From Methanolobus psychrophilus R15 (GTDB taxonomy: Archaea; Halobacteriota; Methanosarcinia; Methanosarcinales; Methanosarcinaceae), in contig CP003083.1 of NCBI GenBank assembly GCA_000306725.1, positions 682,001 to 746,000 on the forward strand: a stretch of 64,000 nt of DNA, in the 5' to 3' direction. How positions within the stretch are numbered: position 1 is the stretch's first letter; every line of letters starts with the position of its first letter. Below, one piece after another: positions 9,814-40,837 of the stretch. Made by a program: the position numbers and the translations under genes. The notes beneath the pieces were generated by a model. The model saw nothing but the letters and a program-made list of their open reading frames with translations, was not told the origin of the DNA and ran no database searches.

Positions 9814-10794
9814 ATGCTGGACATGAGTTCCCCTTCCGTGATCCTTGGATTAGTTCTGGCAAGTAGTTTCTTGGTACCGTTCTTTGCCACGTATATATCA
9901 ATGCCCTATTTCATCATGAAACTGACCGAAAAAGGGATCCTTGCAAAGGATTACTACAAACTGAAGCTCACCATGGTCCCTGATAGGGGCGGCATAGCCA
10001 TACTGCTTGTAGCGATGGTGTGCTTCTCCCTGAACACTCTCTTTTTCAAGTTCTCAACGACCAATTACGTTGCCCTTATCGTGGTGGCACTCTTTGGACT
10101 TTTTGGCATACTGGACGACATGATAGATATCGGCAGGGTGACAAAGCTCCTGCTTATGTACTATTGCTCCTATCCGCTGATACAGTATGCAACGACCACT
10201 GCCTTTGTGTTCCCGTCCATTGGAGATTTTGAGACAGGCATCCTTTACCTGCAGTTTGTGGTGCCCACGTTCGTCCTTGTAGCCTCAAACCTAGTCAACA
10301 TGCACTCAGGTTTCAATGGCCTGGCCTCAGGTCTCTCTACCATAATCCTGATCTCACTTATCATAAGGTCTGCACTTATCGGGGATGTAGAGAACATCTT
10401 TGCCATGGTGTGCATAGCAGGAGCGACACTCGCCTTCTTCCTCTATGACAGATACCCTTCCAGGATATTCTGGGGCAATGTGGGGTCCCTGACAATCGGT
10501 GCTGCCATCGGTGCACTTATAGTCATTCAGGGATTTGTGATCAGCGGGTTCATTATGCTGATACCGCACACCGCCAACTTCCTCCTGTACGTCTACTGGA
10601 GAGCCATGAAGTTCCCCGTTGCAAAGTTTGGCAAGACCCGCGAGGATGGCACGCTGGAAGTACCCAACCCACTTACCCTCAAATGGGTACTGCCATACTA
10701 CTACAGGGTCACTGAGAAACAGGCAACGTATGCAATGTACGCCGTAACGGGATTGTTCTGCCTGCTGGGCATAATGCTTCCGGGAAGGATGTAA
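9814..10794 (+). CDS. aglH: UDP-GlcNAc:dolichyl-phosphate GlcNAc-1-phosphate transferase (AglH/GPT-like)
   Basis: 326 residues with about ten membrane helices. Glycosyltransferase-4 superfamily motifs are present: PDRGGIAIL (56-64), GILDDMID with the metal-binding Asp pair at 101-102, NMHSGFNGL (162-170) and RIFWGNVGSL. The NMHSGFNGL form is closer to eukaryotic ALG7 and Methanococcus AglH than to bacterial WecA or MraY. It should attach the first GlcNAc-phosphate to dolichyl phosphate, the first membrane step of an N-glycan or other lipid-linked glycan. This fits the upstream diacetamido-uronate genes, since in Methanococcus voltae that sugar is the second residue of the N-glycan. Specificity is inferred. 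Confidence 0.85.
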   Translation: MLDMSSPSVILGLVLASSFLVPFFATYISMPYFIMKLTEKGILAKDYYKLKLTMVPDRGGIAILLVAMVCFSLNTLFFKFSTTNYVALIVVALFGLFGILDDMIDIGRVTKLLLMYYCSYPLIQYATTTAFVFPSIGDFETGILYLQFVVPTFVLVASNLVNMHSGFNGLASGLSTIILISLIIRSALIGDVENIFAMVCIAGATLAFFLYDRYPSRIFWGNVGSLTIGAAIGALIVIQGFVISGFIMLIPHTANFLLYVYWRAMKFPVAKFGKTREDGTLEVPNPLTLKWVLPYYYRVTEKQATYAMYAVTGLFCLLGIMLPGRM

Positions 10795-24880: not shown

Positions 24881-27800
24881 TCACTGGACCGTTTCTCCGA
24901 AATGTGCTGCCACGATAGACAGATCCTGTACGTTCACGATACCGTCCTGGTTGACATCCCAGCGCGGGAGGTCTTCAGAATAGGTGTTGCCATAGTTCTG
25001 TCCCACAAGGGTGATGTCAAGGATGTTCACAACACCATCCTGATTAACATCCCATCTCGGATGCACGTCAAGGATCATAATGGTGTGTGTCTGGCTTACC
25101 TGGCTGTTCCCGTCGCTTACGGTGACACCTATTGAGTGTGTGCCTGCGCAGGAGTAGTCAGTGACCCATTGGTAGCCCGCAGAGCTGCTCACCTGGACGC
25201 CGTTGATGGTCAGTGAATAGCTGAGTGGCTCTCCCTCCGGGTCTTCTGCGACCACGCTTATGTCAATTACCTGGCCCTCCTCGAACTCAGAGCCTGAAGC
25301 CGGCTCAAAGAGAGTGATCACCGGTGCACTGTTCAGACTTGTGACGGTGATGGCTGCAGTGGCGATGTCATTGAGGTAGCCGTCAGTGGCTTCGAATCCC
25401 ATGGTGTATGTGCCTGCCTGGCCTCTTGCCGGAGTCCAACTGAAGGTCCCGGATGCAGCATTGAATGTGGCACCCTGTGGCAGGGATGTACCGGAGTAGG
25501 TCAGCGTGTCACCATCCGCGTCGGTTGCACTCACTGCAAATGTGAGGGCAGACTCTTCCTCTACAGACATCGCAGGGATGGCATTGAACACAGGCGCAGT
25601 GTCCACCAGTATAGAAGCATAGGTGATATCGTACGGTGCAGGATTAGAGTATGCATCGCTGAGCACTACATTGGAGAGTGTCAGCTCAAGCATCCCGCTG
25701 GATGCACCCGCGACCATATCCACCGTGGCCATGCTGCCAGGCGTTGAAACTGTCCCGGAACCCACAATGGCAGAGTATACGTTCCTCAGTACTCCTGCGG
25801 AATTATCTATGGTACCGCTCTGGAAGGTGTTGCTCAGGCCGCCCATCTTGAAGAGCCCTCCATCCCTGACCGATGTAACTGAAGCAAGCGTGCTGTAGTG
25901 CATGTTTAACTGCGCCCCGGTCACGGGCTGCTTCGGATCGATGTACACATCAAGCGAGAATGTCTCACCCGGCGCCACCACGCCTGCTGATGGCACTACA
26001 CTGATAGCCGAATACTCAGACCCCGTAACTACTACGTTCCATGTTCTGGTAGTTGTGCCAAGGTCCGTGGTTCCTTCAAAGCTCACAGTGAACGATCCGG
26101 ATGCGTCCCAGTTCTGTGTATAGCTAGTTGTATCACTTGCGACTGCAGCTCCATTGAAGTACCACTGTGTACTTGTGAACTGCTCGTCGGTGTTCACGAT
26201 GAAGTTGGTGGACTCACCGATACTGGCTGTAAAGGAGGTTGCGGAGGGAATGTAGGAGGTGCCTGAACCGGAGGATTCCGGAGCCTTTGGCCCTTCAGGA
26301 ACCTGCGATTTCTCGGATATGGACCAGCTCTGCATTACAGCGCCGTTGCCATTTGCTCCCTCGAAGTTTATGGTGTGAGATCCTTCCAGGATACTCCAGT
26401 CATATTCCAGTAAGCCTGAGGATACCTGAACACCGTCGACATACCAATTCATGTTAGTTAGCACCTCATCCGTCCATACCCTGAACTTCTTTGTGCTGCC
26501 TGGCACGAATGGATTATCTTCGCTCGGGGCAAAGCCTATGATACTGGGACCGCTAGTGCTGTTGTTTGGGATGATGGCTGTGATGGTATAGGTAGGGATA
26601 TTAGGATTCTCACGGTACCATGTAGGGTCTGGGGAGATGCCAGTGAGGGATACTGACTGTCCACTCGGAGCATTGGCAGTGAGAGTGTAGGTCAGCGACT
26701 CCTTTTTCAGATTGCCAGCATCGCTTGTCAACACATAGTCTATCAGGACTACGGAGTTCTTTGGATTGCCAGAGTTTGGCAGGGCTGTGCGTCCATTGGA
26801 ATCTGTAAATGCTGTGCCGAGTGGCAGTGCATTGTACCATCGAGTATGGACGCCACCGCTATATTGCTCGTATGAAGCATGATTTACACCATAATTAGTT
26901 ACGCCACCTTGACCCGGACCATAAGCATCAATAATGTAATCTCGATATTGAAGGAGGCTTTCTGCAGGAAGCAAAGCATTTGATGAATGAATGAGTATTT
27001 CTGCATTATTAATAGGGCCTTCTGTTGCTCCTTCTATAAGCAGATCAGAATAATATTTTGTTTGTACAGATGCATTATCTGTTGCAACATTCAAGTTCCC
27101 CTCTAGATACTTACAATTAAGCAAAGCCAGCGTGGAGGGTTCAGTATCATCCCTGTAATCAACAAAGTATTCAAACTTATATGCCTTCTTAGCAGAAATG
27201 CTAACTTCAGTGAGATCACTATCCTTAAAAGTTGTTGCGTTTTGTATCCAGTGTCCTCCTATTACTTTCAAATCTACTTTTGTAGTTGGATTTACGAAGG
27301 AGATATTTTCAATAGTAAATCTGGTCAAATCCATCCGAGGCGCAATCCATATTCCTTTTTCTCCTTTGGACTGGATTTTTTTATTGTTGTGATTTACATA
27401 CGCTCCTCTGAGAGTGTAATCTCCATAATCCACCGAACTGTGATTGTGGAACACAGTGTTTTTTATAATTACTTCATAAGGAGCATCAAGAAATAAATTA
27501 CAGGTATTATCAATTATGGAATCCTCAACTATGAATCTTCCACGATAATCATAGACACCATTATTTCTCTCAGTTCCTGTCTGTTCTACTACATTTCTAA
27601 TGTTATCAGGATCAAATATGTTTTGAGATACAGAACTTGCAAAATTCCATATCATTGGATTATCAGTTGCGGTGATGGTAGAGTTGATAATCTTTAGTGT
27701 TGCACCTACTTTAGGGTTAATGCTGAGAGAACCACTTGAAGTATCCATTATTAATTTTTCATTGTTAATAACAAGCCCGCTACCATCAGACAATGTAAGA

Positions 27801-29494
27801 TTGGTCTTCAAAATAGCTGTTTTTGTCTCTTTATCGTAGCTTATTATAGCATTGTTATTAATAGTCTGAGATATTTGATCAAGAGTTACATTATTACCAG
27901 ATACACGAATTCCAGTATCGTCTACTGGATCATACCTGCCTGAAGACAACGATCCAATATACCACCATTTTGCATAAGTGCCATATTCTATGATTGTTTC
28001 AGGATACAAGTACTTATTTTCGTAAACCTGTATGCAATCCATTTCAAGAATTCCATTAGCAGCCAATTCTAGCCTCGTAGCATTATTGAATGCATCTTCA
28101 AAATTTGCATATGCATAAGGTAACATCACACCATTATCCCATGCACTCCACCAGTCGTCCTCAGTTCTGATTATAGTAATTTCACGCCACTCATCACCTA
28201 TCCACCAGTGACTGCCTGGTGCTTGTCCAAGCCATCTTCTAGAAATTGGTATATATGCAGTATCTCCCCAATCTCTTCCTTCAAAACCGATGCGGTGGCT
28301 TACTATTGAGAAATAATCATGGAATTCATTAGCAGTCCATTCTAAAGTCCATCGCGGTGCTAAAGGTGCTCCACCATTGTAACGGGGTTCCTTTTCACCC
28401 CATACCCGGAAATATGCTATTTGAAGTATACCAGGATTGCGTACTTTGAATTTGAAAGTACCATAATTGATGTCAAATTTTGAAACTAGTAACATGCCAG
28501 AACTTGTAGAACTACCGGTATAATAACCATTTTCAATAAGGTTTTCTGACCTTGAATAACTTGGGAACTCCCTGCCCCATGGATCAGACACGTAACCTGT
28601 TCTCCAACTGCTATTCCGGTCAATGAAATAATCAATATAATCAGGGGCGTATTCATTAGGGAGAGTCGATATCAACCATTCCCTTATTAGCTTAGTCCCA
28701 TTATTGTAAGTCGCAACCGTCCTAATCTCCCATAGACAGTTAGAAGGCTGAGAGAAGTCACTTTCCGGCACAGTAAAACTGAAAGATTCTGTAGTACTGG
28801 ACTGCTTTTCCTTATTTACATGCCATACGTAATTAGCAATTTCTTCTTTGTTTGGCGGTAAGATGGAAAATTGAATAGTGTCACCACTTTCGACTAAAAA
28901 AGAATAATCATCATTACCAGTTTTGGTATTGTGGACAATATCAATGTCCCGGTTGCGGGTGTTTATTTGCATATATGGAGTGTTTGAAGAAGCTCTTGAG
29001 GAGCTATAAGTATAAGCACCTCCCCAACTAGGCTTTACAAGGAAAGAATAATACCCAGGCTCATTAATTACCGAACTTACATCAAAAGCATGCCAGCTAC
29101 CAGCCGAACCTGATGGAATCTCAGTTATTTTTGCATTAATGTTCTCTTTTATGGGCCTTCCATAATCCCATGTTATCTCGTTTGCATTCCAGTCAGGTGA
29201 AGTCCTTGATATTTCTGCATTTACGCCACTCACTTTATCGATCATATACAAATAGATCATAGCTGAATCAGTGTACTCAGGCACATAAAAATTAAGGTAT
29301 ACGTATTGGTTTTGAGTAGAAGACCATCGAGCTTTCAAAACAGACTCTTCTTCAAAGCTTTGTGTTGGATATAAGCTGTTAATATAGGTATCATTAACAG
29401 GTATGATTGTCAAAGATGTCGCTCCTGCCAATTGAGAAATAAATAAACACAAACAGAGCACAAAGAATTGCTTTTTCCAAGATTTAAGAGACAT
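24881..29494 (-). CDS. Giant secreted protein with a cohesin domain and a C-terminal dockerin
   Basis: 1537 residues. Signal peptide 1-25. N-terminal DNRLRE/disaggregatase-related beta domain (about 28-185; TYINSLYPTQSFEEESVLKARW). Ig-like and lectin-like segments follow (about 190-520), then a beta-helix-like part (about 560-900; AILKTNLTLSDGSGLVINNEKL). Two Ig-like SEDNPFVPG/ASIGESTNFIV modules span about 1000-1155. The cohesin is at about 1160-1298 (VVPSAGVVAPGETFSLDVYI, GAQLNMHYSTLASV) and two cadherin/Ig-type domains at about 1299-1475. The dockerin is at about 1480-1537, with duplicated calcium loops DVNQDGVVNILDI and DVNQDGIVNVQDL. Cohesin-dockerin pairs dock proteins with high affinity. 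Having both in one chain suggests a self-assembling or scaffold-linking surface protein. Substrate unknown. Confidence 0.87.
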   Translation of the reverse strand: MSLKSWKKQFFVLCLCLFISQLAGATSLTIIPVNDTYINSLYPTQSFEEESVLKARWSSTQNQYVYLNFYVPEYTDSAMIYLYMIDKVSGVNAEISRTSPDWNANEITWDYGRPIKENINAKITEIPSGSAGSWHAFDVSSVINEPGYYSFLVKPSWGGAYTYSSSRASSNTPYMQINTRNRDIDIVHNTKTGNDDYSFLVESGDTIQFSILPPNKEEIANYVWHVNKEKQSSTTESFSFTVPESDFSQPSNCLWEIRTVATYNNGTKLIREWLISTLPNEYAPDYIDYFIDRNSSWRTGYVSDPWGREFPSYSRSENLIENGYYTGSSTSSGMLLVSKFDINYGTFKFKVRNPGILQIAYFRVWGEKEPRYNGGAPLAPRWTLEWTANEFHDYFSIVSHRIGFEGRDWGDTAYIPISRRWLGQAPGSHWWIGDEWREITIIRTEDDWWSAWDNGVMLPYAYANFEDAFNNATRLELAANGILEMDCIQVYENKYLYPETIIEYGTYAKWWYIGSLSSGRYDPVDDTGIRVSGNNVTLDQISQTINNNAIISYDKETKTAILKTNLTLSDGSGLVINNEKLIMDTSSGSLSINPKVGATLKIINSTITATDNPMIWNFASSVSQNIFDPDNIRNVVEQTGTERNNGVYDYRGRFIVEDSIIDNTCNLFLDAPYEVIIKNTVFHNHSSVDYGDYTLRGAYVNHNNKKIQSKGEKGIWIAPRMDLTRFTIENISFVNPTTKVDLKVIGGHWIQNATTFKDSDLTEVSISAKKAYKFEYFVDYRDDTEPSTLALLNCKYLEGNLNVATDNASVQTKYYSDLLIEGATEGPINNAEILIHSSNALLPAESLLQYRDYIIDAYGPGQGGVTNYGVNHASYEQYSGGVHTRWYNALPLGTAFTDSNGRTALPNSGNPKNSVVLIDYVLTSDAGNLKKESLTYTLTANAPSGQSVSLTGISPDPTWYRENPNIPTYTITAIIPNNSTSGPSIIGFAPSEDNPFVPGSTKKFRVWTDEVLTNMNWYVDGVQVSSGLLEYDWSILEGSHTINFEGANGNGAVMQSWSISEKSQVPEGPKAPESSGSGTSYIPSATSFTASIGESTNFIVNTDEQFTSTQWYFNGAAVASDTTSYTQNWDASGSFTVSFEGTTDLGTTTRTWNVVVTGSEYSAISVVPSAGVVAPGETFSLDVYIDPKQPVTGAQLNMHYSTLASVTSVRDGGLFKMGGLSNTFQSGTIDNSAGVLRNVYSAIVGSGTVSTPGSMATVDMVAGASSGMLELTLSNVVLSDAYSNPAPYDITYASILVDTAPVFNAIPAMSVEEESALTFAVSATDADGDTLTYSGTSLPQGATFNAASGTFSWTPARGQAGTYTMGFEATDGYLNDIATAAITVTSLNSAPVITLFEPASGSEFEEGQVIDISVVAEDPEGEPLSYSLTINGVQVSSSAGYQWVTDYSCAGTHSIGVTVSDGNSQVSQTHTIMILDVHPRWDVNQDGVVNILDITLVGQNYGNTYSEDLPRWDVNQDGIVNVQDLSIVAAHFGETVQ

Positions 29495-29982: not shown

Positions 29983-31413
29983 TTATACTATCTTTTTTAA
30001 ACGAAATATTTTATTAAACGCTTTTATATCATAAGAGTCGATCCATCCCGTATAATAAAGGATGCCTACATATAATGGAACAGAGAAAGGACAAAGGACT
30101 AACATATTATATTGCCCTAGTCCGAATAGAAATACTGATACAGAAAATGCACCGAATAAAGGATAACTTAATTCGCGAGTGAGAGGTACATTAATTACAT
30201 TTTTGTATATCCAATATATTCCGAAGACCATTACAATCATTTCTGTTAACAAAGTAGCAATGGCAGCACCATTATAACTATAATGGGGAATCAAACTCGC
30301 ATTCATAATAACATTTAAAAAAGCTGCAAAAGCTGAAATCTTGGCAATCATCTTCTGGTTATTACTCGATATATAAGTGAAACTCAAAAGAATATTAATA
30401 AACATCACGGCTGTGGCCCAAATAAGTATTCTTAATACAGTTACCGAGTTATTGTACTCAGTACCATACATGAAGGAGATAATCCATTCAGCAAATGTTG
30501 TGGCAAGGACAGCTAAAAAAAGACCGGAAGCTAGCAGATATTTAAAGGATCTGATATAAGATTGAGTAAAATTAGTGTGTGAAGACTTGTAATATTGCGA
30601 CATTAAAGGAAAAACAGAAGTCATAAATACTGAGGGAACAAATACTAAAGCTTCTGTCAGCCTGTATGCTGCACTGTAGTAACCTACTGCTATGTTTGAT
30701 TTCATGAACTGTAACATCACGACATCAATACGGAAATAAATCATTGTAAAAACTGATGCTACCGCTATAGGTAATGCTTCTAACATTATGTTTTTTAGTA
30801 GCGCAGTGTTTAATTTAAAAGATGGAACTACAAATCTCTTTGAAAATAAATACATAAGCAGATTATGGATCAAATCTGAAACAATAGATGCAAGTACAAA
30901 ATAGCCAAGCGACTGATTGTAATAGATTCCAGCATAAACAGCTATCAAAAAGAATATTCGACTGGCAATGCTAAAGAAAACAGAATACTCCATCTTTAAT
31001 TTTGTTTCATAGATGACACCATATGCACTAACACTAGTGATTAAAAGCCCTAAACTTGCAATATAAAGAGTACTTTCAATATGGCTAGGATAATCCAAAA
31101 AATAGATTGTTGATAATGACAAAACGAAAGCTACAAAAGATAAAATAACTTTCAGTATTGTTGCGTTCCCAATTAAAATGCTAGCATCTTCAGGTTTCTT
31201 TGAAATCTCTCTAACCAAAACATTATGCACTCCCATATCAGGTATAAACCCAAAAAAGTAAATAAATGCAAAAGCAAAAGAAAATGTTCCAAATTCTTCA
31301 GGTCCTAAATATCGTGCAATATAGAGTAATATTAAAAAACTTATTATTTTTGTTGCAACTCTTCCGAATAGTAAATAACCTGAGTTGCGTGCAATTTTTA
31401 AGATAGTGGACAT
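29983..31413 (-). CDS. Polysaccharide/oligosaccharide flippase (MOP superfamily, Wzx-like)
   Basis: 476 residues with 12-14 predicted membrane helices. The start resembles the family pattern: GYLLFGRVATKIISFLILLYIARYLGPEEFGTFSFAFAF, i.e. N-terminal amphipathic helix and YLGPEEFG. It would flip lipid-linked glycans across the membrane. Twelve bases downstream of a glycosyltransferase gene and last in the run. Could also be called AglR-like by role, which is inference. Confidence 0.87.
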   Translation of the reverse strand: MSTILKIARNSGYLLFGRVATKIISFLILLYIARYLGPEEFGTFSFAFAFIYFFGFIPDMGVHNVLVREISKKPEDASILIGNATILKVILSFVAFVLSLSTIYFLDYPSHIESTLYIASLGLLITSVSAYGVIYETKLKMEYSVFFSIASRIFFLIAVYAGIYYNQSLGYFVLASIVSDLIHNLLMYLFSKRFVVPSFKLNTALLKNIMLEALPIAVASVFTMIYFRIDVVMLQFMKSNIAVGYYSAAYRLTEALVFVPSVFMTSVFPLMSQYYKSSHTNFTQSYIRSFKYLLASGLFLAVLATTFAEWIISFMYGTEYNNSVTVLRILIWATAVMFINILLSFTYISSNNQKMIAKISAFAAFLNVIMNASLIPHYSYNGAAIATLLTEMIVMVFGIYWIYKNVINVPLTRELSYPLFGAFSVSVFLFGLGQYNMLVLCPFSVPLYVGILYYTGWIDSYDIKAFNKIFRLKKIV

Positions 31414-31425
31414 GGAATGAACTCC

Positions 31426-32553
31426 TTAAGGTTTTAGCAAGGAGGAATAGAGATCAAGAGTTTGCTTACAAATGATTTCCCATGAATAGTCCAATACTCT
31501 CTTCATACCTTTTTCACTTAACTCTTTTTTCATTGAAGTATTGGAAAGCAAAAGTAAAATACATCTTGCCATATCTTGCACATCTTCTTGATTAAACAAA
31601 ATTCCATATTTCCCATACTCTAAAATATCAGGGATTCCACCAACATTTGACGCTACAACAGGAATGCCTGCTTCTAAGGCTTCTAGAACTACAATTCCAA
31701 AAGTTTCATATCTAGAAGGAATCACGAAAACATCACATTCATGTAAAAAAACCTGTTTATCGTGTTCAGATAAGAAACCTAGGAAAGTTATATTGCTTTC
31801 CAAACCTAACTTTTGTGCTAATTTCTTTAAATTTGATGCTTGAGGACCTTGCCCTGCAACATATAAATGAATATCGGGAACTTGTTTTTTTACATAGTAT
31901 AAAGAAGATATTAGCAAATCAACTCCTTTAAATTTTATAAGTCTCCCTATGAAAAATAGAGAAGGGTGAGAGACTGAAGGATTTTCAAATTTTGACCCCC
32001 CTTCTTGAAGTGCAGAGAAATTAATTCCATTGGGTAGATAGATGATTTTAGGATTCGGACCAATTGCCAACTCTACTTCATTTTTTATCCATTTAGAAAC
32101 TGCAATAATAGAATCTGCATTTTTCAAAGCCTCCTTTTCAAAAAAGGGATTTAAGAAAAAGCTTAAATTTAGGTATGCTCGTATTGCATGTGAGCGTTTT
32201 ACTTTTATTGAAGCCAATCCATGAGTAGTAATTACAATAGGAAATGGCATTTTTGCCAAGGGCGAATAGGGAGGATATGTAAAATGCAAATGCACTATAT
32301 CAGGATTTATTTCAATTATTTTATTTTGTATACTTTTATAAGAATACCAGTATCCGGAAGTTGGAAAAGAGACTTTTTTTACTAAATGAACAGTATATCC
32401 TTGCATGTGAAGGATTTCATTCGTGTCTGCAAAAGACACAACATGGAAATCAATAGCAGAATTTATTTTTAAAGAATTAGAAATCAAGTTATTAACAACT
32501 GTATAAGCACCACCACTCAGTTCATTCCATTCGGCAACGTGAACAATTCTCAT
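31426..32553 (-). CDS. Glycosyltransferase family 4 (GT-B)
   Basis: 375 residues. The N-terminal half has HVAEWNELSGGAYTVVNNL and HLHFTYPP. The C-terminal GT1/4 nucleotide-sugar domain has FIGRLIKFKGVDLLI, LYVAGQGPQ, FLGFLSEHDK and PSRYETFGIVVLEALEAGIPVVAS, with the E-x7-E retaining signature in the last motif. Donor and acceptor cannot be read. Directly followed by the flippase gene. Confidence 0.88.
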   Translation of the reverse strand: MRIVHVAEWNELSGGAYTVVNNLISNSLKINSAIDFHVVSFADTNEILHMQGYTVHLVKKVSFPTSGYWYSYKSIQNKIIEINPDIVHLHFTYPPYSPLAKMPFPIVITTHGLASIKVKRSHAIRAYLNLSFFLNPFFEKEALKNADSIIAVSKWIKNEVELAIGPNPKIIYLPNGINFSALQEGGSKFENPSVSHPSLFFIGRLIKFKGVDLLISSLYYVKKQVPDIHLYVAGQGPQASNLKKLAQKLGLESNITFLGFLSEHDKQVFLHECDVFVIPSRYETFGIVVLEALEAGIPVVASNVGGIPDILEYGKYGILFNQEDVQDMARCILLLLSNTSMKKELSEKGMKRVLDYSWEIICKQTLDLYSSLLKP

Positions 32554-32687
32554 AATAATTCTCCTTTCAGAATTTCGTTTTTAGTACAAAATAAATCTAA
32601 TTAGTAAATATACGAATGTATATATAAATAGTACATCATTTGCCCTTATTTAAACACAAATTGTAATCTCTCCATTTGAATTTAAAA

Positions 32688-33827
32688 TTACATAATCGAT
32701 AGATACAGAGAATAATAATTGTCCAAACATTGATGTAATGTAAACTTTTCTTTAAAAATTGTAATAGATTTCTCTTTCATTGATGAATAATTACCATAGT
32801 TAAATAAATCTATAACTTTTTGTGCTAGTAAATCGATGTCTCGTTTAATTATATAACCCGTAATTCCATCCACAACAACTTCTTTTGTACCACCTGAATC
32901 ATAGCCTATTACAGGAATTCCAATGGACATAGCCTCAATTGCAGTATACGGACAAGCTTCCTCAAAAAGAGAAGGCATTACAACACAGGAAGAAATACTA
33001 TATATCTCATAAATATCTGGAACATTGCCTGTAAATACAAAATAATCTTCAATGTTTAACTCTTTTATTTTACTTTTTATATGATTTTCACATTCACCAC
33101 TTCCCACAAGCACAAATTTAACATTGCGGACTTGAGCTATAATCTGAGGAGCTGCTTTTACTAAGTGATACGCACCCTTGTCTTTTCGGAGACTTACGCA
33201 TGTCACAACAAATTCATTAGATAGTCCAAGCTTCTGTTTTATATTATCTAAGTTGTAACTCTGTTCTAGAATTTTAGCATCAATTCCATTGTATATCACT
33301 AGCGATTTTTTTGTCTTAATGCAATACTGTTTAAAATAGTTATCTCTTACAAATTGAGAAACACATACTATTTTCTCAATTCCATGATCGAAAAGGATCG
33401 AATTTATCAAGTAGTAAATTTTGCGCAAATTATTATGTAATCGGTTTTTTGCTGTTTTACCACCCATATGACCTGTATAAATAATTTTAGTAGTGCATAT
33501 GTATTTTAAATAATTAACTATTGTATGGATTGGATAGAAATGAAGATGCATTATTATGGGATTATATATCTTAATTAAAGTATAAATTTTAACAACATTA
33601 AAAATATTATATTTTGAGGGTTTGATTATTTCTATTTTAGCTCCAGCTTCCAGTAAGAGTAATTCAACTTCTGGTATGGGTTCATCTCTAAATACAACAA
33701 TATGTTGGAACCCATTTACTGTGAGAATTTCAGTCATTCCAATCATAAACTTTTCAAAAGAACCCAGTCGCTTGGGAGATATATCGCATATAGAGATAAT
33801 ACAGTCTTTAGGGCAATCATTAATCAT
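32688..33827 (-). CDS. Glycosyltransferase family 4 (GT-B)
   Basis: 379 residues. Landmarks are ICDISPKRLGSFEKFMIGM at the start, IYTGHMGGKT, VSLRKDKGAYHLVKAAP, FVLVGSGECE, FTGNVPDI and PSLFEEACPYTAIEAMSIGIPVIGYDSGG (E-x7-E). Strong A/T-rich codon use compared with the upstream cluster genes (37.5-40.8 kb) suggests a different origin. Its start overlaps the stop of the next upstream gene by one base (TAATG). Confidence 0.87.
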   Translation of the reverse strand: MINDCPKDCIISICDISPKRLGSFEKFMIGMTEILTVNGFQHIVVFRDEPIPEVELLLLEAGAKIEIIKPSKYNIFNVVKIYTLIKIYNPIIMHLHFYPIHTIVNYLKYICTTKIIYTGHMGGKTAKNRLHNNLRKIYYLINSILFDHGIEKIVCVSQFVRDNYFKQYCIKTKKSLVIYNGIDAKILEQSYNLDNIKQKLGLSNEFVVTCVSLRKDKGAYHLVKAAPQIIAQVRNVKFVLVGSGECENHIKSKIKELNIEDYFVFTGNVPDIYEIYSISSCVVMPSLFEEACPYTAIEAMSIGIPVIGYDSGGTKEVVVDGITGYIIKRDIDLLAQKVIDLFNYGNYSSMKEKSITIFKEKFTLHQCLDNYYSLYLSIM

Positions 33828-34957
33828 TATTTCACATCTCTTTCCAAAAATTGTGAGTAAACATCAATATAATCTCCTATAACATAATTCCATCTATATG
33901 CAGAGGCGAAACATTTTTGTCTTTTTATTAGCGCTTCATCAAATGCATTTAAATAACTATTATGAAGAACCTCAAATATAGTATCTACACTTGGTTCAAA
34001 TGAACACAACTGATGATTACCCATAACTGTAAAATCATAAATTCCTGCTTTTCTAGAAAAATAAACTGGACAATTTGCAGATGCAAAAGCCTCAATGCAT
34101 GATATTGGAACATTATCCCAAATAGAAGGATATATAGCAAGGTTTACTTTTTCCAGATAATTTTTTATTGTTTCTTTGCCAACATTGCCAAGCAAAAATA
34201 CATTGGCTTTCAAATTTAAATCATGAACTAGTTTTGCGATATGCTTTTCTTGTGGACCACTGCCTGCAATATATAGGAAAGCGGATTTTACATTATCCAC
34301 TGATAAAAACTTGCTAAAACCTTTAATTAGAAGGTCAACTCCTTTTTCGGGAGATAAACGACCATGATAAAATACTTCGAAGTGAGACTCATCTCTGCAT
34401 AATGAATTGCACTCCTGCAAGTACCAGAAATCTTCTATGCCATTAGGAATGACCTTTGGGGTCTTTACACCATATTTCTCTGTAACTAATGTTTTAAAAA
34501 GATAAGAATTAACAATTAGTTGATCGGAACTTTTTAAAAGTTGAGGTAATGCTAGATAGGTTGGTATATAAGAATAGTCAATTATATGATTATGCTTATA
34601 ATTAAGGTTTACTTCAGTTCTAATCTCTCCATGATAATTCAGAATTAAAGAGTTTTTATTTATCTTGCTGTACAAATGCAATAAAAACTTACTGTTTGGA
34701 AATAAATGGGGACTCAGAGGAATATGGATAATATCGCTATTCTTTACAGAAACTATTTCTCTCCCAGTATATACATGTATATCTTGGAACTTCTTTTTCA
34801 GTTCCTCTTTATTCTGAGACGAAGAGAAAATAGAAATATCATTAAAAGGCAACTCATCTCTTAATTCAAGAAGAGATAAAAAAATGTTTCTTCCTACTGC
34901 TGAAGGAGCACCTGTGCTTAAAGGGTAATAGAATATTAAATTAATATTATCTTTCAT
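33827..34957 (-). CDS. Glycosyltransferase family 4 (GT-B)
   Basis: 376 residues. YYPLSTGAPSAVGRNIF at the start and HYHG-type FYHGRLSPEKGVDLLIKGF, LYIAGSGPQEKHI, LLGNVGKETI, YPSIWDNVPISCIEAFASANCPVYFSRKAG further on. The final motif is a weakened E-x7-E form. Coupled to the downstream transferase gene by a TAATG overlap. A/T-rich like its partner. Confidence 0.85.
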   Translation of the reverse strand: MKDNINLIFYYPLSTGAPSAVGRNIFLSLLELRDELPFNDISIFSSSQNKEELKKKFQDIHVYTGREIVSVKNSDIIHIPLSPHLFPNSKFLLHLYSKINKNSLILNYHGEIRTEVNLNYKHNHIIDYSYIPTYLALPQLLKSSDQLIVNSYLFKTLVTEKYGVKTPKVIPNGIEDFWYLQECNSLCRDESHFEVFYHGRLSPEKGVDLLIKGFSKFLSVDNVKSAFLYIAGSGPQEKHIAKLVHDLNLKANVFLLGNVGKETIKNYLEKVNLAIYPSIWDNVPISCIEAFASANCPVYFSRKAGIYDFTVMGNHQLCSFEPSVDTIFEVLHNSYLNAFDEALIKRQKCFASAYRWNYVIGDYIDVYSQFLERDVK

Positions 34958-35094
34958 ATGATATCCTGCGATTTTTAACTGGAAGGTATTGAAATGCCAC
35001 TTTCCATCATTATATAATAGTACTTGTCAATTTTCTCATTTATCTTAATAATCGAGTATTAAAAATGTCACTAATGCAAGAGACATAAAATCCA

Positions 35095-36663
35095 CTAAAT
35101 TTGTTCATCATGATTGAAATACCATAAAGCTATTCTGGTATTATCATAAATTTTATTGTAGTGTTGATTTACTACACTTGTGACAGGTTTTGCATAATAT
35201 TTGTCTTGAACGAAATAGTTAAACCCTTTCAACTGACTAAGTGATGTAGCTGTTTGTCTTAACCATTCCATACGGCCTTCTATAGTAGTGCCTGATTTAA
35301 CAGCATATGGCCCCTCAAAGTAAAAATCCTTTTCTCTGTAAGTGTGTCGGACATATTCGATTTCACTTGCGTTAATGAATCCATAAGCCAAATTACCAGC
35401 GCCTATAGAGGGTGTAATTGGACGGCCTTCAGAAATAGCGAACATTCTCCCTGTTTCAAATGCGGTATCCAATCCATAAGAGTTTGAAGGGACATGAGTC
35501 CTACTCCACATACCCGCCACATGAGTTTCATCCCTCATGTACCAATATGCATCAGATTCTCCGGTTCTATTGTGATTATAATAGCCTGAAAAAGCCACGG
35601 TCGATAATATTGCTACTACTAGAACTGATGTTACAAACTTTTTGTGAACTGCAATTATAGTCATATTGTAAAAAGATATACCAATGAATAAGACAATAAA
35701 CAATAATAAAATATAAGCTCCATAAGCATGAGAATAAATAGCAGGGATTAAAAACGTTATAATCGTAAGTAAGAAAATTTCTTTTGTAGACTTGTCTTTT
35801 TTAAACAAAGTATAAATAAAGCCCCCTACTGCTAGAATCAATAATGGACCGGTTTGCCTTAAAATACTTATTGAAGAGGTTATGAGCCAACTATATCTAG
35901 AGCCTGAATCAACTAATGATCGAGTGATAAAAGGCATCCCAATAAATGCTATTATTAAGAAAATGATTATATAATGAGTATATGGTTTCAATCTATCAAG
36001 ATATGTGGTCTTTTCCAATATCAAGAGACTTATGTATACTGCAATTATCGGGATAAGGAAAAAGCCATAATGATGGATAGAAAACAGAAATACACTTAAC
36101 AGGAACAGAAGAAGCGCTTTCTTTAGCAGACTCATTTCTACCAGAAGAAGGTAAATGAACAAAGGCAAAGTGATTATAAAAAGACCTCTAGTGCTTACTT
36201 CCCAAGTAGAGAAAAGCATAACACCAGGTGCAATTGAAAAGAACAAAGCTACTCCATATTTGTAAATGAAATTAGAGAAAAATCTGCCTGCTAAAACATA
36301 CGCAGTGAAAATGGAAATAACACCAGTAACTACACAGTAGATTAATATCACTATCTCCATCTCTATTCCCATAAGTTGATGCATACCGGATAGAATAAAA
36401 GGTACTGCGCTGGCATATGAAAGTGCATAAAAACCGAATGCAGAAAGCCAATGAATCCACCATTGAGCATCACCAAAGATTGATATTGAATTTGCAAGTG
36501 AGTGAATGAAGAAAGAGTCATATCCTTTTTCATGGGGGATACTGGGAATACGTATCACTAAATTGAGCAAAACCAGTAAAGAAAGCAAAACTAGTTTGGC
36601 GCTCTTGCCTCTGAGAAAGAAGTTTTTAGCAGCAGAGAGAGTTTTTTGTTCCATGTTAATCAA
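35095..36663 (-). CDS. Polytopic GT-C-like membrane protein (glycosyltransferase candidate)
   Basis: 522 residues with about ten to twelve helices in the first 380, then a soluble C-terminal part (about 385-522). The acidic segment PHEKGYDSFFIHSLANSIS after the first helix is where GT-C enzymes place their catalytic acidic loop. Repeated helix pairs and HHYGFF also fit. It lacks the WWDYG motif of STT3/AglB oligosaccharyltransferase, so a dolichyl-phosphate-sugar-dependent transferase is more likely. Overlaps the upstream GT2 gene by eight bases. Confidence 0.65.
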   Translation of the reverse strand: MINMEQKTLSAAKNFFLRGKSAKLVLLSLLVLLNLVIRIPSIPHEKGYDSFFIHSLANSISIFGDAQWWIHWLSAFGFYALSYASAVPFILSGMHQLMGIEMEIVILIYCVVTGVISIFTAYVLAGRFFSNFIYKYGVALFFSIAPGVMLFSTWEVSTRGLFIITLPLFIYLLLVEMSLLKKALLLFLLSVFLFSIHHYGFFLIPIIAVYISLLILEKTTYLDRLKPYTHYIIIFLIIAFIGMPFITRSLVDSGSRYSWLITSSISILRQTGPLLILAVGGFIYTLFKKDKSTKEIFLLTIITFLIPAIYSHAYGAYILLLFIVLFIGISFYNMTIIAVHKKFVTSVLVVAILSTVAFSGYYNHNRTGESDAYWYMRDETHVAGMWSRTHVPSNSYGLDTAFETGRMFAISEGRPITPSIGAGNLAYGFINASEIEYVRHTYREKDFYFEGPYAVKSGTTIEGRMEWLRQTATSLSQLKGFNYFVQDKYYAKPVTSVVNQHYNKIYDNTRIALWYFNHDEQI

Positions 36664-37516
36664 AAAATTCCTTATACTTATTTCTGTAGTAACATCTTAC
36701 TTCTGGAATATGAATCTTTTCTTTAATAAAGAACACTCCATAAACAAAACCGTACAAATAAGCAACGCCTATGTAGTAAGGACGCTTTAAACAATATTTT
36801 ACAGACTTAAATAGTACATATAAAGGATGATAGCCCCGATAATAGTCAGATTTACCACGGGTTTTATAGCCTTTCCAGAAGCCTTCGGTGCTGGTTGTAG
36901 GGCGAGCGGTGATGGCTATTATGTCATTGTATTTCATGATCTTCCAGCCACCCAGGATGGCCAATACATTTGACACAGAATCTGCAGAGTAACTTTGGGG
37001 GAAACCGCCGGAATCTTCGAAGCATTTCTTTCTCCAGACCCGCAGACCGCCTATTGGATTTTGTGAACGTCCGGTCTCATTGACCAAGGAACCATTCAGG
37101 TAATAAGCAGCCGAACCGCTACACACGCCTATACACGGATCACTGTTCATGCGTTCAAGTATCGACTCGAAGAAGTCTTTCCCCAGAAGCATATCGGCAT
37201 CTATCAAAGAGATAAAATCACAAGGGATGTCATTATTCTCACAAAAGCCAATTGCATACTTTATTGCATGATCTACAATCTTAGAGTAATGAAAAGTGAG
37301 GTCCCTCACTGATTCGACCCCGTGGATTATGTGGACCCACCCATATTTCCCCTCAAAATCTCTCAGGATATCAGGGGTTGAGTCCGTACTGCCGTCATCA
37401 ACGATTACCCATAGATTTGGCTTAATAGTATTATTAAGAACCGATTCGATCAGTCCCGGTAATGACTTCTCTTCGTTTTTACAAGGAGTCACGATAATAT
37501 AATCATTTTTTCCCAT
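36656..37516 (-). CDS. Glycosyltransferase family 2 (GT-A)
   Basis: 286 residues: YIIVTPCKNEEKSLPGLIESVL, VDDGSTDSTPDIL, the metal-binding LIDADMLL, GGLRVWRKKCFEDSGGFP, and a C-terminal hydrophobic stretch (about 245-265) that may dip into the membrane. GT2 enzymes of this kind use polyprenyl-phosphate or nucleotide-sugar acceptors. Between the DUF354 gene (11 bases upstream) and the GT-C-like gene (overlap). Confidence 0.88.
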   Translation of the reverse strand: MGKNDYIIVTPCKNEEKSLPGLIESVLNNTIKPNLWVIVDDGSTDSTPDILRDFEGKYGWVHIIHGVESVRDLTFHYSKIVDHAIKYAIGFCENNDIPCDFISLIDADMLLGKDFFESILERMNSDPCIGVCSGSAAYYLNGSLVNETGRSQNPIGGLRVWRKKCFEDSGGFPQSYSADSVSNVLAILGGWKIMKYNDIIAITARPTTSTEGFWKGYKTRGKSDYYRGYHPLYVLFKSVKYCLKRPYYIGVAYLYGFVYGVFFIKEKIHIPEVRCYYRNKYKEFFD

Positions 37517-37527
37517 AACTCACCCGA

Positions 37528-38565
37528 TCAAGATCTTTCTTTGATGATGTTTTCCTCAATAGAATCTACAATGAACTTAACTATATCAGTTGCACTATCG
37601 TATAGTCTTTGAGTCTTTACTTGCCATTTATCATTTAGTTCCTTATCCTGTAGGAGCATTTCTGCTTTTGCAATGGCCTCATGTTTGTCTACTATAGTAT
37701 AGCAAAGATCGTATTTAGTCTCAAGCTCATCCAGATAGCCCCGGCGGGTGTTAGAAACATAGATGGAGGGAACGCCCAATATTGCAGACTCTGAGGCCAT
37801 GGTTGCTCCTTCACCGATGTACAGTTTGGCGAAGTGCAATATATGATGCAGATGAGCAGGGTCTATCTCAAGCTTGTGCTCTTCAATCAGCGGCCAGTGA
37901 TCAGTTTCCGAGAAGATGATGACCCTGCCATATTCCTTAAGCCGGGAAATGAAATCACGCAGCTCTTCTTCTGATCCAAAACTGAACCCATGGGCCCCTA
38001 TATCGTGATGCGAAGCAAGAGCAGATAACCTCAGGACGATGTAGTCCCCTTCAAGGCCATATTTTTCAATAACTGTCCTGTCAGGAGTAAAGTGATCCGG
38101 ATGCAGGTATGCTAACTCATAATAGCCTTCAAATCGCACCTGCTTGGGCCCAAGATACACGTAGAAGCTTGTTGAAGTGTATATCTTATCGGTGAACGGG
38201 AAAGTCAGCTTCATGACAAGACCGGCTATTTCAGTATCAGGGAATGCTATGTGGGGTCTCCCGAGCAACCTGCTGACGTGTGCGGAATACGGAGAACCAG
38301 GGCTTACAAAGATATCCGGCCTGAACTTACTTGCAAACTGATATAAACGGAAGTCATTGACCAGGATACCAAGAGCCTTTCCTCCGATGTTTGAATAATA
38401 AGGGCATAAGTGATGATCTATGCCAAGGTCCTCAAGCATTCTTCGGGTATTCTCTTTCGCCCTTGCAAAAACCTTAACTTCATGGCCTTTGTCTTGAAGT
38501 TCTGCAATAACATCCTTGAAGACATTCACATCTTTGGGATGACCAATATCAAGCAATATTTTCAT
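37528..38565 (-). CDS. DUF354 family GT-B-like protein
   Basis: 345 residues: KILLDIGHPKDVNVFKDVIAEL, KVFARAKENTRRMLEDLG, PDIFVSPGSPYSAHVSRLLGRPHIAFPDTE, IGEGATMASESAILGVPSIYVS. The last motif is the GT-B donor-binding site also found in MurG and UDP-GlcNAc 2-epimerases. DUF354 proteins are frequent in archaeal and bacterial surface-glycan loci; activity not established. Overlaps the acyltransferase gene start by 17 bases, so the two are coupled. Confidence 0.85.
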   Translation of the reverse strand: MKILLDIGHPKDVNVFKDVIAELQDKGHEVKVFARAKENTRRMLEDLGIDHHLCPYYSNIGGKALGILVNDFRLYQFASKFRPDIFVSPGSPYSAHVSRLLGRPHIAFPDTEIAGLVMKLTFPFTDKIYTSTSFYVYLGPKQVRFEGYYELAYLHPDHFTPDRTVIEKYGLEGDYIVLRLSALASHHDIGAHGFSFGSEEELRDFISRLKEYGRVIIFSETDHWPLIEEHKLEIDPAHLHHILHFAKLYIGEGATMASESAILGVPSIYVSNTRRGYLDELETKYDLCYTIVDKHEAIAKAEMLLQDKELNDKWQVKTQRLYDSATDIVKFIVDSIEENIIKERS

Positions 38566-39007
38566 TCATATTCACATCCCCTATCTTTCTGGCAGGCACT
38601 CCTGCAACGATTGCATAAGCCGCTACATCTTTTGTAACAACTGAGCCTGCCCCGACAACAGCCCCTGCACCAACATAGACATCCGGCATGATGATAGCAC
38701 CTGCACCTATCCAGGCATCATCTCCAATGGTCACTTTCCCTCTCTGGACCTTCACATACGGATATATCCAGGAATTATTAGGATCAGAAGAGGATAACAA
38801 TATCACATTAGGTCCGATTGCTGCCCTGTTGCCAATTATCACATTTCCCCGGTCTTCAAGCTTTTCTGCGATTGTCAGGCCTTCCGCAATATAAGCCTGG
38901 GTACCGATATGGTAGCCACACCTTCTGTAGAGAAATAAGCGCAAAGAAGCGGACGGGATATTTTTCGCGATCCATTTAAATATCTTTTTTCGGAAGCGCC
39001 AGAGCAA
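38549..39007 (-). CDS. Left-handed beta-helix acyltransferase (maltose/galactoside O-acetyltransferase-like)
   Basis: 152 residues with hexapeptide repeats (IGTQAYIAEGLTI, IGNRAAIGPNVILL, IGDDAWIGAGAIIMPDVYVGAGAVVGAGSVVTKDV) and the AIVAGVPARKIGDV ending. It would O- or N-acetylate a sugar residue of the glycan made by this cluster. Six bases after the FemAB-like gene. Confidence 0.87.
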   Translation of the reverse strand: MLWRFRKKIFKWIAKNIPSASLRLFLYRRCGYHIGTQAYIAEGLTIAEKLEDRGNVIIGNRAAIGPNVILLSSSDPNNSWIYPYVKVQRGKVTIGDDAWIGAGAIIMPDVYVGAGAVVGAGSVVTKDVAAYAIVAGVPARKIGDVNMNENIA

Positions 39008-39013
39008 TTGCGA

Positions 39014-40018
39014 TCACACCATGAGTTTTTTATAAACTGAAAAGCCAAAGCCTGCAATACTGCTTCTTGCCCGTGAATGCACCTTCTCATATCTCCCGAA
39101 ATTGACCATCTCCCCACCAAACCTTCTCTTGAACTCCCGCACTCCATAAGGTTTATCGGGGTGACCGGCTCCACCGAAATCAAAGACCTTGTACTTGCCG
39201 GCGTTTTCCTTGAGGACATGCCAGACAAGAAGCTCATCTACATAGTCGATCTCCGGTTTTGACCCAGCATACCAGTCGTAGACCATGTCCTTATAGTTCA
39301 GCGTGATCCTTGTGCCTATAGCCTCATTGTCCAGCACTGCTATGAAAAAATCTGCAAAGCCGGTAGGTGCAAGATCTTCGTAGACTGCCTCAAAGAGAGA
39401 GATGTCTGCGATGGGGACCTTGAACCTTTTGTAAGTGTCATCCACCAGATCATAGCAGGCTGTGAGTTCTTCCATGCTGCTGACCTTTCGAACGACCATG
39501 CCGTTCTTTTCAGCGCGGTTTATACCTTTCCTGCGGGACTTGTGGATGTCCTGCCATATATCTTCTTCATTTCGGTAAAGATCTATCAGAAAATCCAGGT
39601 GCTGGTCATATTCATACCCAAGGACAGCAAGCATTTGAGCAGAATCCTGCGTGTCCCACATGTTACGTATCTGGGTGTAAACGACCTTGCTCCCCACGAG
39701 ACGGTTATAGTGCTCCACCAACAGCCTGGCAGCTTCCCGGCCTGGCGGCGAATCAACGAAAAGGGGCCCTCCCTGTAGTATCGAACGGGATGAGAACGCG
39801 GACAGCAAGCCGCCAAACTCTGAAATGATAGTTGCCTGCATGACTGCAAGTATATCTCCGGAGACTGATTCTACCGCTGCAAGACACACAGGATTATAAT
39901 TTCTGGTCTTCCTATAGGCCTCTGTCATCATAAAAGACTGGAAAACATTACCCTGAGGGTGGGAAAGAACGAAATCTTCCCAGCGGGAAGCATCAATAGA
40001 ATCTGTGATCTCTATCAT
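39014..40018 (-). CDS. FemAB/GNAT-superfamily aminoacyl- or acyl-transferase
   Basis: 334 residues. The fold is a double GNAT: N-terminal SFMMTEAYRKTRNYNPVCLAAV, middle DIHKSRRKGINRAEKNGMVVRKV (very like the FemX/lipid II:glycine transferase hinge), and C-terminal YDWYAGSKPEIDYVDELLVWHVLKENAGKYKVFDFGGAG. In bacteria these enzymes add amino acids to peptidoglycan precursors. In an archaeon without murein it may add an amino acid or acyl group to a glycan. A link to Methanococcus-type threonine-bearing uronates is speculative. Confidence 0.75.
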   Translation of the reverse strand: MIEITDSIDASRWEDFVLSHPQGNVFQSFMMTEAYRKTRNYNPVCLAAVESVSGDILAVMQATIISEFGGLLSAFSSRSILQGGPLFVDSPPGREAARLLVEHYNRLVGSKVVYTQIRNMWDTQDSAQMLAVLGYEYDQHLDFLIDLYRNEEDIWQDIHKSRRKGINRAEKNGMVVRKVSSMEELTACYDLVDDTYKRFKVPIADISLFEAVYEDLAPTGFADFFIAVLDNEAIGTRITLNYKDMVYDWYAGSKPEIDYVDELLVWHVLKENAGKYKVFDFGGAGHPDKPYGVREFKRRFGGEMVNFGRYEKVHSRARSSIAGFGFSVYKKLMV

Positions 40019-40024
40019 AGCACA

Positions 40025-40837
40025 TCATCCAGTCCTGCTTTTGGCACGTTCGCCTGATATCTTCCTGTAGTGTATGATCCCCGCCTTCCCCACATTCTTC
40101 ACGTTCTGCATCACCAGTTCCTTAGTCCACCCGGACATACTGTCGCACCACCTGTTGGGATGGGCGAGGATGCAGATCTGTGCGAATTCACGGCTTTTGA
40201 CCAGCCGGATCACATCATCTGTGGTCCTTACGTTGCAGGCGAGCTTACCATTTGAACCGCCGGAGCATCCTTCAAGGACGTCCTTGACACGTATCTTCCT
40301 GTCTGCCCAGGTCCTGCCGGTATCTGTGAGGTATAGTACCCGGGAGTAATCCAGGGAAAAGTAGGGTTCGCCTATCAGTCCCATATCCCTGAAATCGTGA
40401 TCTTCCCACAGGTCCCTGTTGGACCATGAAGCAAGAGGGTTGCCGTGCATGCAGGCAGTTGTGACCTGCGCATATTTTCGAAGGTCTTCAAGCTCCTCTT
40501 TAAAGATCTCCAGTGCCTTTTGCTTATCACCCTTTGCCTTATCCATGACCTCGTAATGGAATCCCACTTCATGACCCATGGAGGCAACCTCCCTGATAGC
40601 CTCGGGGATGAAGACATCCTTCACGTGCCTGAAGTAGTAAGTGGACCTGATGCCCATACTGTGCTCCAGGCGAGCCATTGCAAGATTGCGCCCGACCTCC
40701 CGGTCCACGTCGTGGCGCAGGATGACAGACCTCTCTGCAGGTGCCACAAGGTGATCATGTACCGGCATTGGAAGGTAATCTGCTAAGAGTATGGCCTCCA
40801 GAAGCTCCCTGTATTTGGACAATGTGAAATCTCGCAC
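40025..40837 (-). CDS. Polysaccharide deacetylase-like protein (NodB/CE4 fold)
   Basis: 270 residues. ILRHDVDREVGRNLAMARLEHSMGIRSTYYFR holds the first CE4 motif (HDVD). GHEVGFHYEVMDKAKGDKQKAL replaces the HxxxH metal site with GFHYE, and ILAHPNRWCD is the C-terminal histidine motif. Such proteins are common in archaeal surface-glycan clusters, often uncharacterised. First gene of the ten-gene leftward run; the next gene follows after six bases. Confidence 0.75.
   Translation of the reverse strand: MRDFTLSKYRELLEAILLADYLPMPVHDHLVAPAERSVILRHDVDREVGRNLAMARLEHSMGIRSTYYFRHVKDVFIPEAIREVASMGHEVGFHYEVMDKAKGDKQKALEIFKEELEDLRKYAQVTTACMHGNPLASWSNRDLWEDHDFRDMGLIGEPYFSLDYSRVLYLTDTGRTWADRKIRVKDVLEGCSGGSNGKLACNVRTTDDVIRLVKSREFAQICILAHPNRWCDSMSGWTKELVMQNVKNVGKAGIIHYRKISGERAKSRTG

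Follow-up and report, generated by a model that had tools for sequence, protein, structure and literature searches.

A secreted Methanolobus protein with a cohesin and a dockerin in one chain, and its possible tethering at the cell surface

Within a 64,000-nucleotide stretch of the complete 3.07-Mb genome of Methanolobus psychrophilus R15 (hereafter 'the window') lies the gene for a secreted, carbohydrate-binding protein of 1537 amino acids that carries both a cohesin and, at its extreme C-terminus, the only dockerin detected in the genome. On balance we think it probable that this protein is tethered, through its dockerin, to a membrane-anchored cohesin at the cell surface. That an archaeal chain can hold both a cohesin and a dockerin is already known; what is new here is the genus-wide conservation of the cassette that holds them, the one-dockerin inventory of the genome, and the finding of disaggregatase-family relatives that carry a dockerin.

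Domain architecture of the 1537-residue protein

The features of the gene, its product and the adjoining gene run are as follows (window coordinates, all on the minus strand).

24881..29494, minus: gene for the cohesin and dockerin protein (P0001); open reading frame with ATG start, 1537 aa
29420..29494, minus: putative signal peptide, residues about 1-25, read by inspection (KSWKK, hydrophobic stretch, AGA-TS)
28958..29410, minus: CBM96 carbohydrate-binding module, residues 29-179 (PF24517, 57.7 bits, E 1.7e-15, cut-off 26)
27965..28627, minus: beta-rich region, residues about 290-510; conservation limited to full-length orthologues (four-row alignment)
27668..27910, minus: possible start of a beta-helix, residues 529-609 (pLDDT about 63-93, short repeating strands, no Pfam match)
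26024..26632, minus: conserved Ig/PKD-like pair, residues 955-1157, from the alignment; start of the shared C-terminal module
25604..26023, minus: cohesin, residues 1158-1297 (PF00963, 33.2 bits, E 7.2e-8; also the relatives' profile)
25340..25597, minus: He_PIG Ig-like domain, residues 1300-1385 (PF05345, E 2.8e-14)
25127..25324, minus: Big_7 Ig-like domain, residues 1391-1456 (PF17957, E 1.2e-8)
24884..25057, minus: type I dockerin, residues 1480-1537, extreme C-terminus (PF00404, E 1.1e-9)
25016..25051, minus: dockerin calcium loop 1, DVNQDGVVNILD (strict loop pattern)
24923..24958, minus: dockerin calcium loop 2, DVNQDGIVNVQD (strict loop pattern)
29983..40837, minus: polysaccharide-synthesis gene run (flippase, glycosyltransferases), upstream and in the same direction; homologues flank the cassette gene in relatives

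A preliminary description of the window had placed a cohesin (about residues 1160-1298) and a complete two-loop dockerin (1480-1537) in one secreted chain, and Pfam bears out both domains; a putative signal peptide reads, by inspection, MSLKSWKKQFFVLCLCLFISQLAGA-TS. The Dockerin_1 match spans residues 1482-1531 (38.8 bits against a cut-off of 22.9, E 1.1e-9), and both loops, DVNQDGVVNILD and DVNQDGIVNVQD, have the arrangement D1/N3/D5/N9/D12, that is, the calcium ligands at positions 1, 3, 5, 9 and 12 that mark a type I dockerin with two F-hands. Cohesin and dockerin stand some 180 residues apart, with two Ig-like domains between them.

The cohesin call requires a little more care. When residues 1158-1297 are scanned by themselves, PF00963 gives 33.2 bits, above its cut-off of 24.1; the whole-chain Pfam scan does not list a cohesin, and a PF00963 search of the organism's own genome did not recover this one, misses that apparently stem from the filters of HMMER or from a loose first look, and which we do not read as a refutation. 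A Pfam cohesin above the cut-off is also present in L022 and L025, two homologues of full length, and in an extended fragment of a third, L140. A profile built from the relatives' cohesins matches solved cohesin structures (best 5lxv, E 2.5e-7) and recovers the window cohesin from the genome at E 1.2e-57, a value to be read with the fact that the profile includes that very sequence; with the single cohesin as query, phmmer returned from the solved structures only a chance-like match to a tail protein, such that the relatives' profile was needed to reach the cohesins. Given the isolated-domain score, the homologues above cut-off and the profile match to solved cohesins, the call stands.

As to the N-terminal cargo, the lectin-like half of the 'beta-helix/lectin-like region' described earlier is upheld by the CBM96 match (about residues 29-179), and the beta-helix half in part: Pfam gives no such match here, related cargo at two other loci (L045, L042) does match Beta_helix, and helix-like strand repeats appear in one small part of a structure model that is otherwise poor. 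That model has a mean pLDDT of 45, with confidence over residues about 290-510 too low for use, and a Pfam scan of the protein finds no match in the same region. We consider the body between the CBM96 module and the C-terminal cassette likely to be a beta-helix; the cargo as a whole comprises CBM96 and a beta-rich, probably beta-helical body. No catalytic domain was recognised by Pfam in the 1537-residue chain, nor are Disaggr_assoc or Disaggr_repeat among its matches.

The cassette among relatives and the modules of the genome

The cassette cohesin-He_PIG-Big_7-dockerin is found at full length in 25 of the 86 family genomes, Methanolobus accounting for 17, and in all 20 aligned cassettes the dockerin sits at the C-terminus or within a few residues of it. 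No other domain of the cassette is as conserved as the dockerin, whose mean pairwise identity across Methanolobus is 83%, against 65-69% for the others; the cassette cohesin, at 67%, is about equal to its Ig neighbours. Full-length orthologues of the window protein align along the entire chain; in most relatives the family match begins near residues 955-1157, and the N-terminal cargo carried on the cassette varies, being beta-helix (L045, L042), PA14 (L037) or, just below cut-off, DUF4082-like (L017). In Methanolobus halotolerans, a disaggregatase-family protein (PF06848, E 1.3e-169; PF08480, E 1.6e-54) bears the same dockerin type; this protein (L049:5868-9317) and a second with PF06848 and PF08480 (L167:3021-5594) both end in Big_7 plus that dockerin, the latter belonging to the species (G016) with the closest full-length orthologue of the window protein. 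Across the class, dockerins are present in 85 of 156 genomes.

A second dockerin subtype, with loops such as NFFDFVEFA or NILDFSAFA, occurs in other Methanolobus and was not found in this genome; its carriers include a 531-aa open reading frame that looks S-layer-like by eye (L110:1471-3066), a 251-aa minimal cohesin and dockerin protein (L114:1474-2229), a 442-aa one (L109:1471-2799) and a CAP-domain protein (L169:1328-2275). Several Methanolobus also have a scaffoldin-like locus, absent here, in which a gene with three tandem cohesins (L166:8176-10428, L176:4810-7107) lies near a one-cohesin gene, that of L166 having a terminal helix. Within the same phylum, one open frame, 9331 aa long, contains a cohesin match (G215:C1:1096348).

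At the sensitivity used, the M. psychrophilus genome holds one dockerin and three cohesins. The counts are to be taken as lower bounds, since the first look of the search is loose and let a genuine cohesin escape the Pfam model. The single dockerin is agreed upon by the Pfam model, the relatives' profile and the strict loop pattern, for which the two loops of the window dockerin are the genome's only matches; a weak dockerin match at C1:1217612 (L004) was rejected for its haem-protein look (CxxCH motifs). Profile and strict loop pattern searches likewise agree with the earlier statement that the window contains no other cohesin or dockerin. The genome-wide search that had been proposed for further modules thus gave no second dockerin, and did give two more cohesins that are candidate separate partners. 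One, at C1:447277 (L001), has a signal, a cohesin exactly at the PF00963 cut-off (24.1 bits), a PGF-pre-PGF domain (E 2.1e-52) and a C-terminal hydrophobic helix with a basic tail. The other, at C1:1489913-1490328, belongs to a short cohesin protein with a terminal helix (L002:1354-1985, G000:C1:1489817-1490448) whose frame is broken mid-cohesin, either as a true pseudogene or through sequencing error; its orthologues at L157, L158 and L159 are intact. Anchored cohesins (L150-L159, L001, L033) share a recurring GQN (or AGH) motif, hydrophobic helix and basic tail at the end, which resembles a sorting signal.

The cassette gene adjoins glycosyltransferase or flippase genes in most of the named relatives; on its other side, several of them have a conserved glycosyltransferase-4 gene, whose homologue in the window is at 9814-10794. 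Here, the next gene downstream (21633-24500, minus strand) encodes a beta-helix protein with six PKD repeats; as this slot is taken by the glycosyltransferase-4 gene in several relatives, about 14 kb looks to have been inserted or rearranged. At 10-1926 (plus strand) the window also encodes an S-layer protein (PF07752) with a PGF-pre-PGF domain, as in the anchored cohesins. In relatives the dockerin gene is followed immediately by a cohesin gene at 18 loci, some possibly overlapping (L022, L024, L025, L042, L043, L045, L046, L047, L077, L078, L124, L129, L138, L140, L144, L147, L148 and L171), and at a further locus, L170. This pairing is seen in Methanosarcina-type genomes, in another family of the order (L025) and in others, with several of the downstream cohesins bearing PGF-pre-PGF or a terminal helix.

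Known systems for comparison

From its gene content and the published dockerin boundaries, L170, in a genome of 2,178,400 bp, is what we take to be the noncellulosomal ORF2375/ORF2376 pair of Archaeoglobus fulgidus. Its first gene resembles the window gene in that one exported chain combines cargo and a cohesin and ends in a dockerin; the gene after it encodes a short cohesin protein with a membrane helix at its C-terminus, and a separate membrane-anchored cohesin is present in the M. psychrophilus genome too (L001). The two differ in that the A. fulgidus cargo is not CBM96 (it looks propeller-like by eye) and that its anchor gene is adjacent, whereas L001 lies about 260 kb from the window gene. 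Our archaeal profiles score the two modules of L170 weakly (7.4 and 13.6 bits), and the Pfam cohesin model gives its cohesin 66.4 bits. Strong binding has been reported between the ORF2375 dockerin and the cohesin that ORF2376, the following gene, encodes (PMC9705933); in the literature searched there is no statement as to whether this single dockerin binds both cohesins.

ANME archaea, some from the same order, have surface chains with both modules, in which one dockerin is joined by up to five cohesins (PMC9012536), but they possess many dockerins, against one here. Adaptor scaffoldins also carry cohesin and dockerin in one chain (PMC4959524, PMC5301203). Among them, the monovalent ScaC of Ruminococcus flavefaciens (PMC5301203, PMC4959524) is likewise an adaptor that bears a cohesin and is in turn attached to a further scaffoldin, and no solved structure matches the archaeal cohesin profile better than that of a scaffoldin C cohesin, 5lxv; the window protein differs from it in having its own carbohydrate-binding cargo and in that the genome, with its single dockerin, supplies no set of dockerin-bearing enzymes for it to recruit. 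Since adaptor scaffoldins, ANME proteins and L170 all carry both modules, the earlier argument that the one-chain layout is surprising, cellulosome modules being usually on separate proteins, is weak, and the A. fulgidus and ANME proteins rule out any idea that it is unprecedented. Cohesins and dockerins were in fact listed for Methanolobus tindarius in a 2017 table (PMC5244752). The Methanosarcina disaggregatase family (PF06848, PF08480) offers a further comparison through its dockerin-bearing members in M. halotolerans and G016; the window protein, unlike these, has CBM96 only and no Disaggr domain.

A surface tether and its rivals

Synthesis of these findings leads us to the following model, which we hold to be probable. 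A protein with CBM96 and beta-rich cargo would be exported on a conserved C-terminal attachment cassette, whose dockerin, presumably loaded with calcium, would dock onto the cohesin of a membrane-anchored protein (here that at C1:447277), such that the carbohydrate-binding part is held in the polysaccharide coat of the cell; the protein's own cohesin might then serve as a further docking site, to which additional copies could attach in turn. The cohesin that is bound, the activity of the cargo, calcium loading and chain growth are all things that we infer. Gene order in the relatives and the published A. fulgidus pair make the anchored cohesin the better candidate for the dockerin; in the cohesin tree, the cohesin beside the Methanosarcina gene groups with the short anchored cohesins of Methanolobus (98/95). 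Taken with the anchored cohesin of this genome, the cargo, the polysaccharide-gene setting and the constraint on the dockerin, that gene pairing makes the tether, as judged from sequence, the best supported reading. Counting against it are the distance to L001, the broken frame of the short anchored cohesin, the cohesins that relatives keep without dockerins, the want of a recognised catalytic domain in the window protein, and a search of the genome for PF08480 that gave no match.

The preliminary description raised head-to-tail polymerisation. In such a scheme the dockerin of one copy would enter the cohesin of the next, and the anchored cohesin might seed the resulting filament or matrix at the surface; we regard this as unlikely. 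The genome's one detectable dockerin does sit on a cohesin-bearing chain, as it does in five other Methanolobus with one dockerin match and the cassette (G005, G006, G010, G017 and G026), and the cassette cohesin is maintained across the genus; with a single detectable dockerin, and provided that none is undetected, chain growth would be the only cognate use for that cohesin. In such a minimal one-dockerin system, copies of the protein might assemble head to tail on the anchored cohesin, forming a filament on the cell surface with its carbohydrate-binding units exposed in the coat, a picture to which we give only about one chance in several. Set against this, cassette and anchored cohesins fall for the most part into distinct branches of the cohesin tree and differ in their conserved residues, so that a single dockerin would not have to fit both types. 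Moreover, in a neighbouring genus (g3; loci L129 and L147) the dockerin cargo is without a cohesin, and a small separate cohesin and dockerin gene adjoins it. Nor does structure lend support, as an AlphaFold prediction of the cassette gave the dockerin a pLDDT of about 27-50; a fold search with the same model led to multi-Ig adhesion proteins, from which nothing can be learnt.

The two modules could also close upon each other within one chain, masking both until competed, and their spacing of two Ig-like domains would bring this to mind; two such domains in series probably keep the modules apart, and, with the cassette model uninformative on the dockerin, we think this highly improbable. It seems to us somewhat less improbable, yet still a poor prospect, that the cassette cohesin is degenerate or repurposed, with some divergent cohesin or other surface ligand as the partner of the dockerin, or that the modules pair across neighbouring cells or species. 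Methanolobus genomes G008, G015 and G024 keep cohesins although no convincing dockerin is found in them, and in G018 the cohesin is kept with the dockerin broken (L026), from which it follows that the partner of some cohesins must be something else, if they have one at all; retention of the cohesin in the dockerin-bearing cassette of 25 genomes, with little decay, speaks against this reading.

The role of archaeal, non-cellulosomal cohesins and dockerins is a question that has stood since they were first reported, and the Methanolobus lineage provides a small test case. The presence of one dockerin and few cohesins, and of the same dockerin on disaggregatase-family proteins in two relatives, suggests a system that keeps polysaccharide-active proteins at the cell surface, an idea with a bearing on the ways in which methanogens make their coats and aggregates and break them down again.
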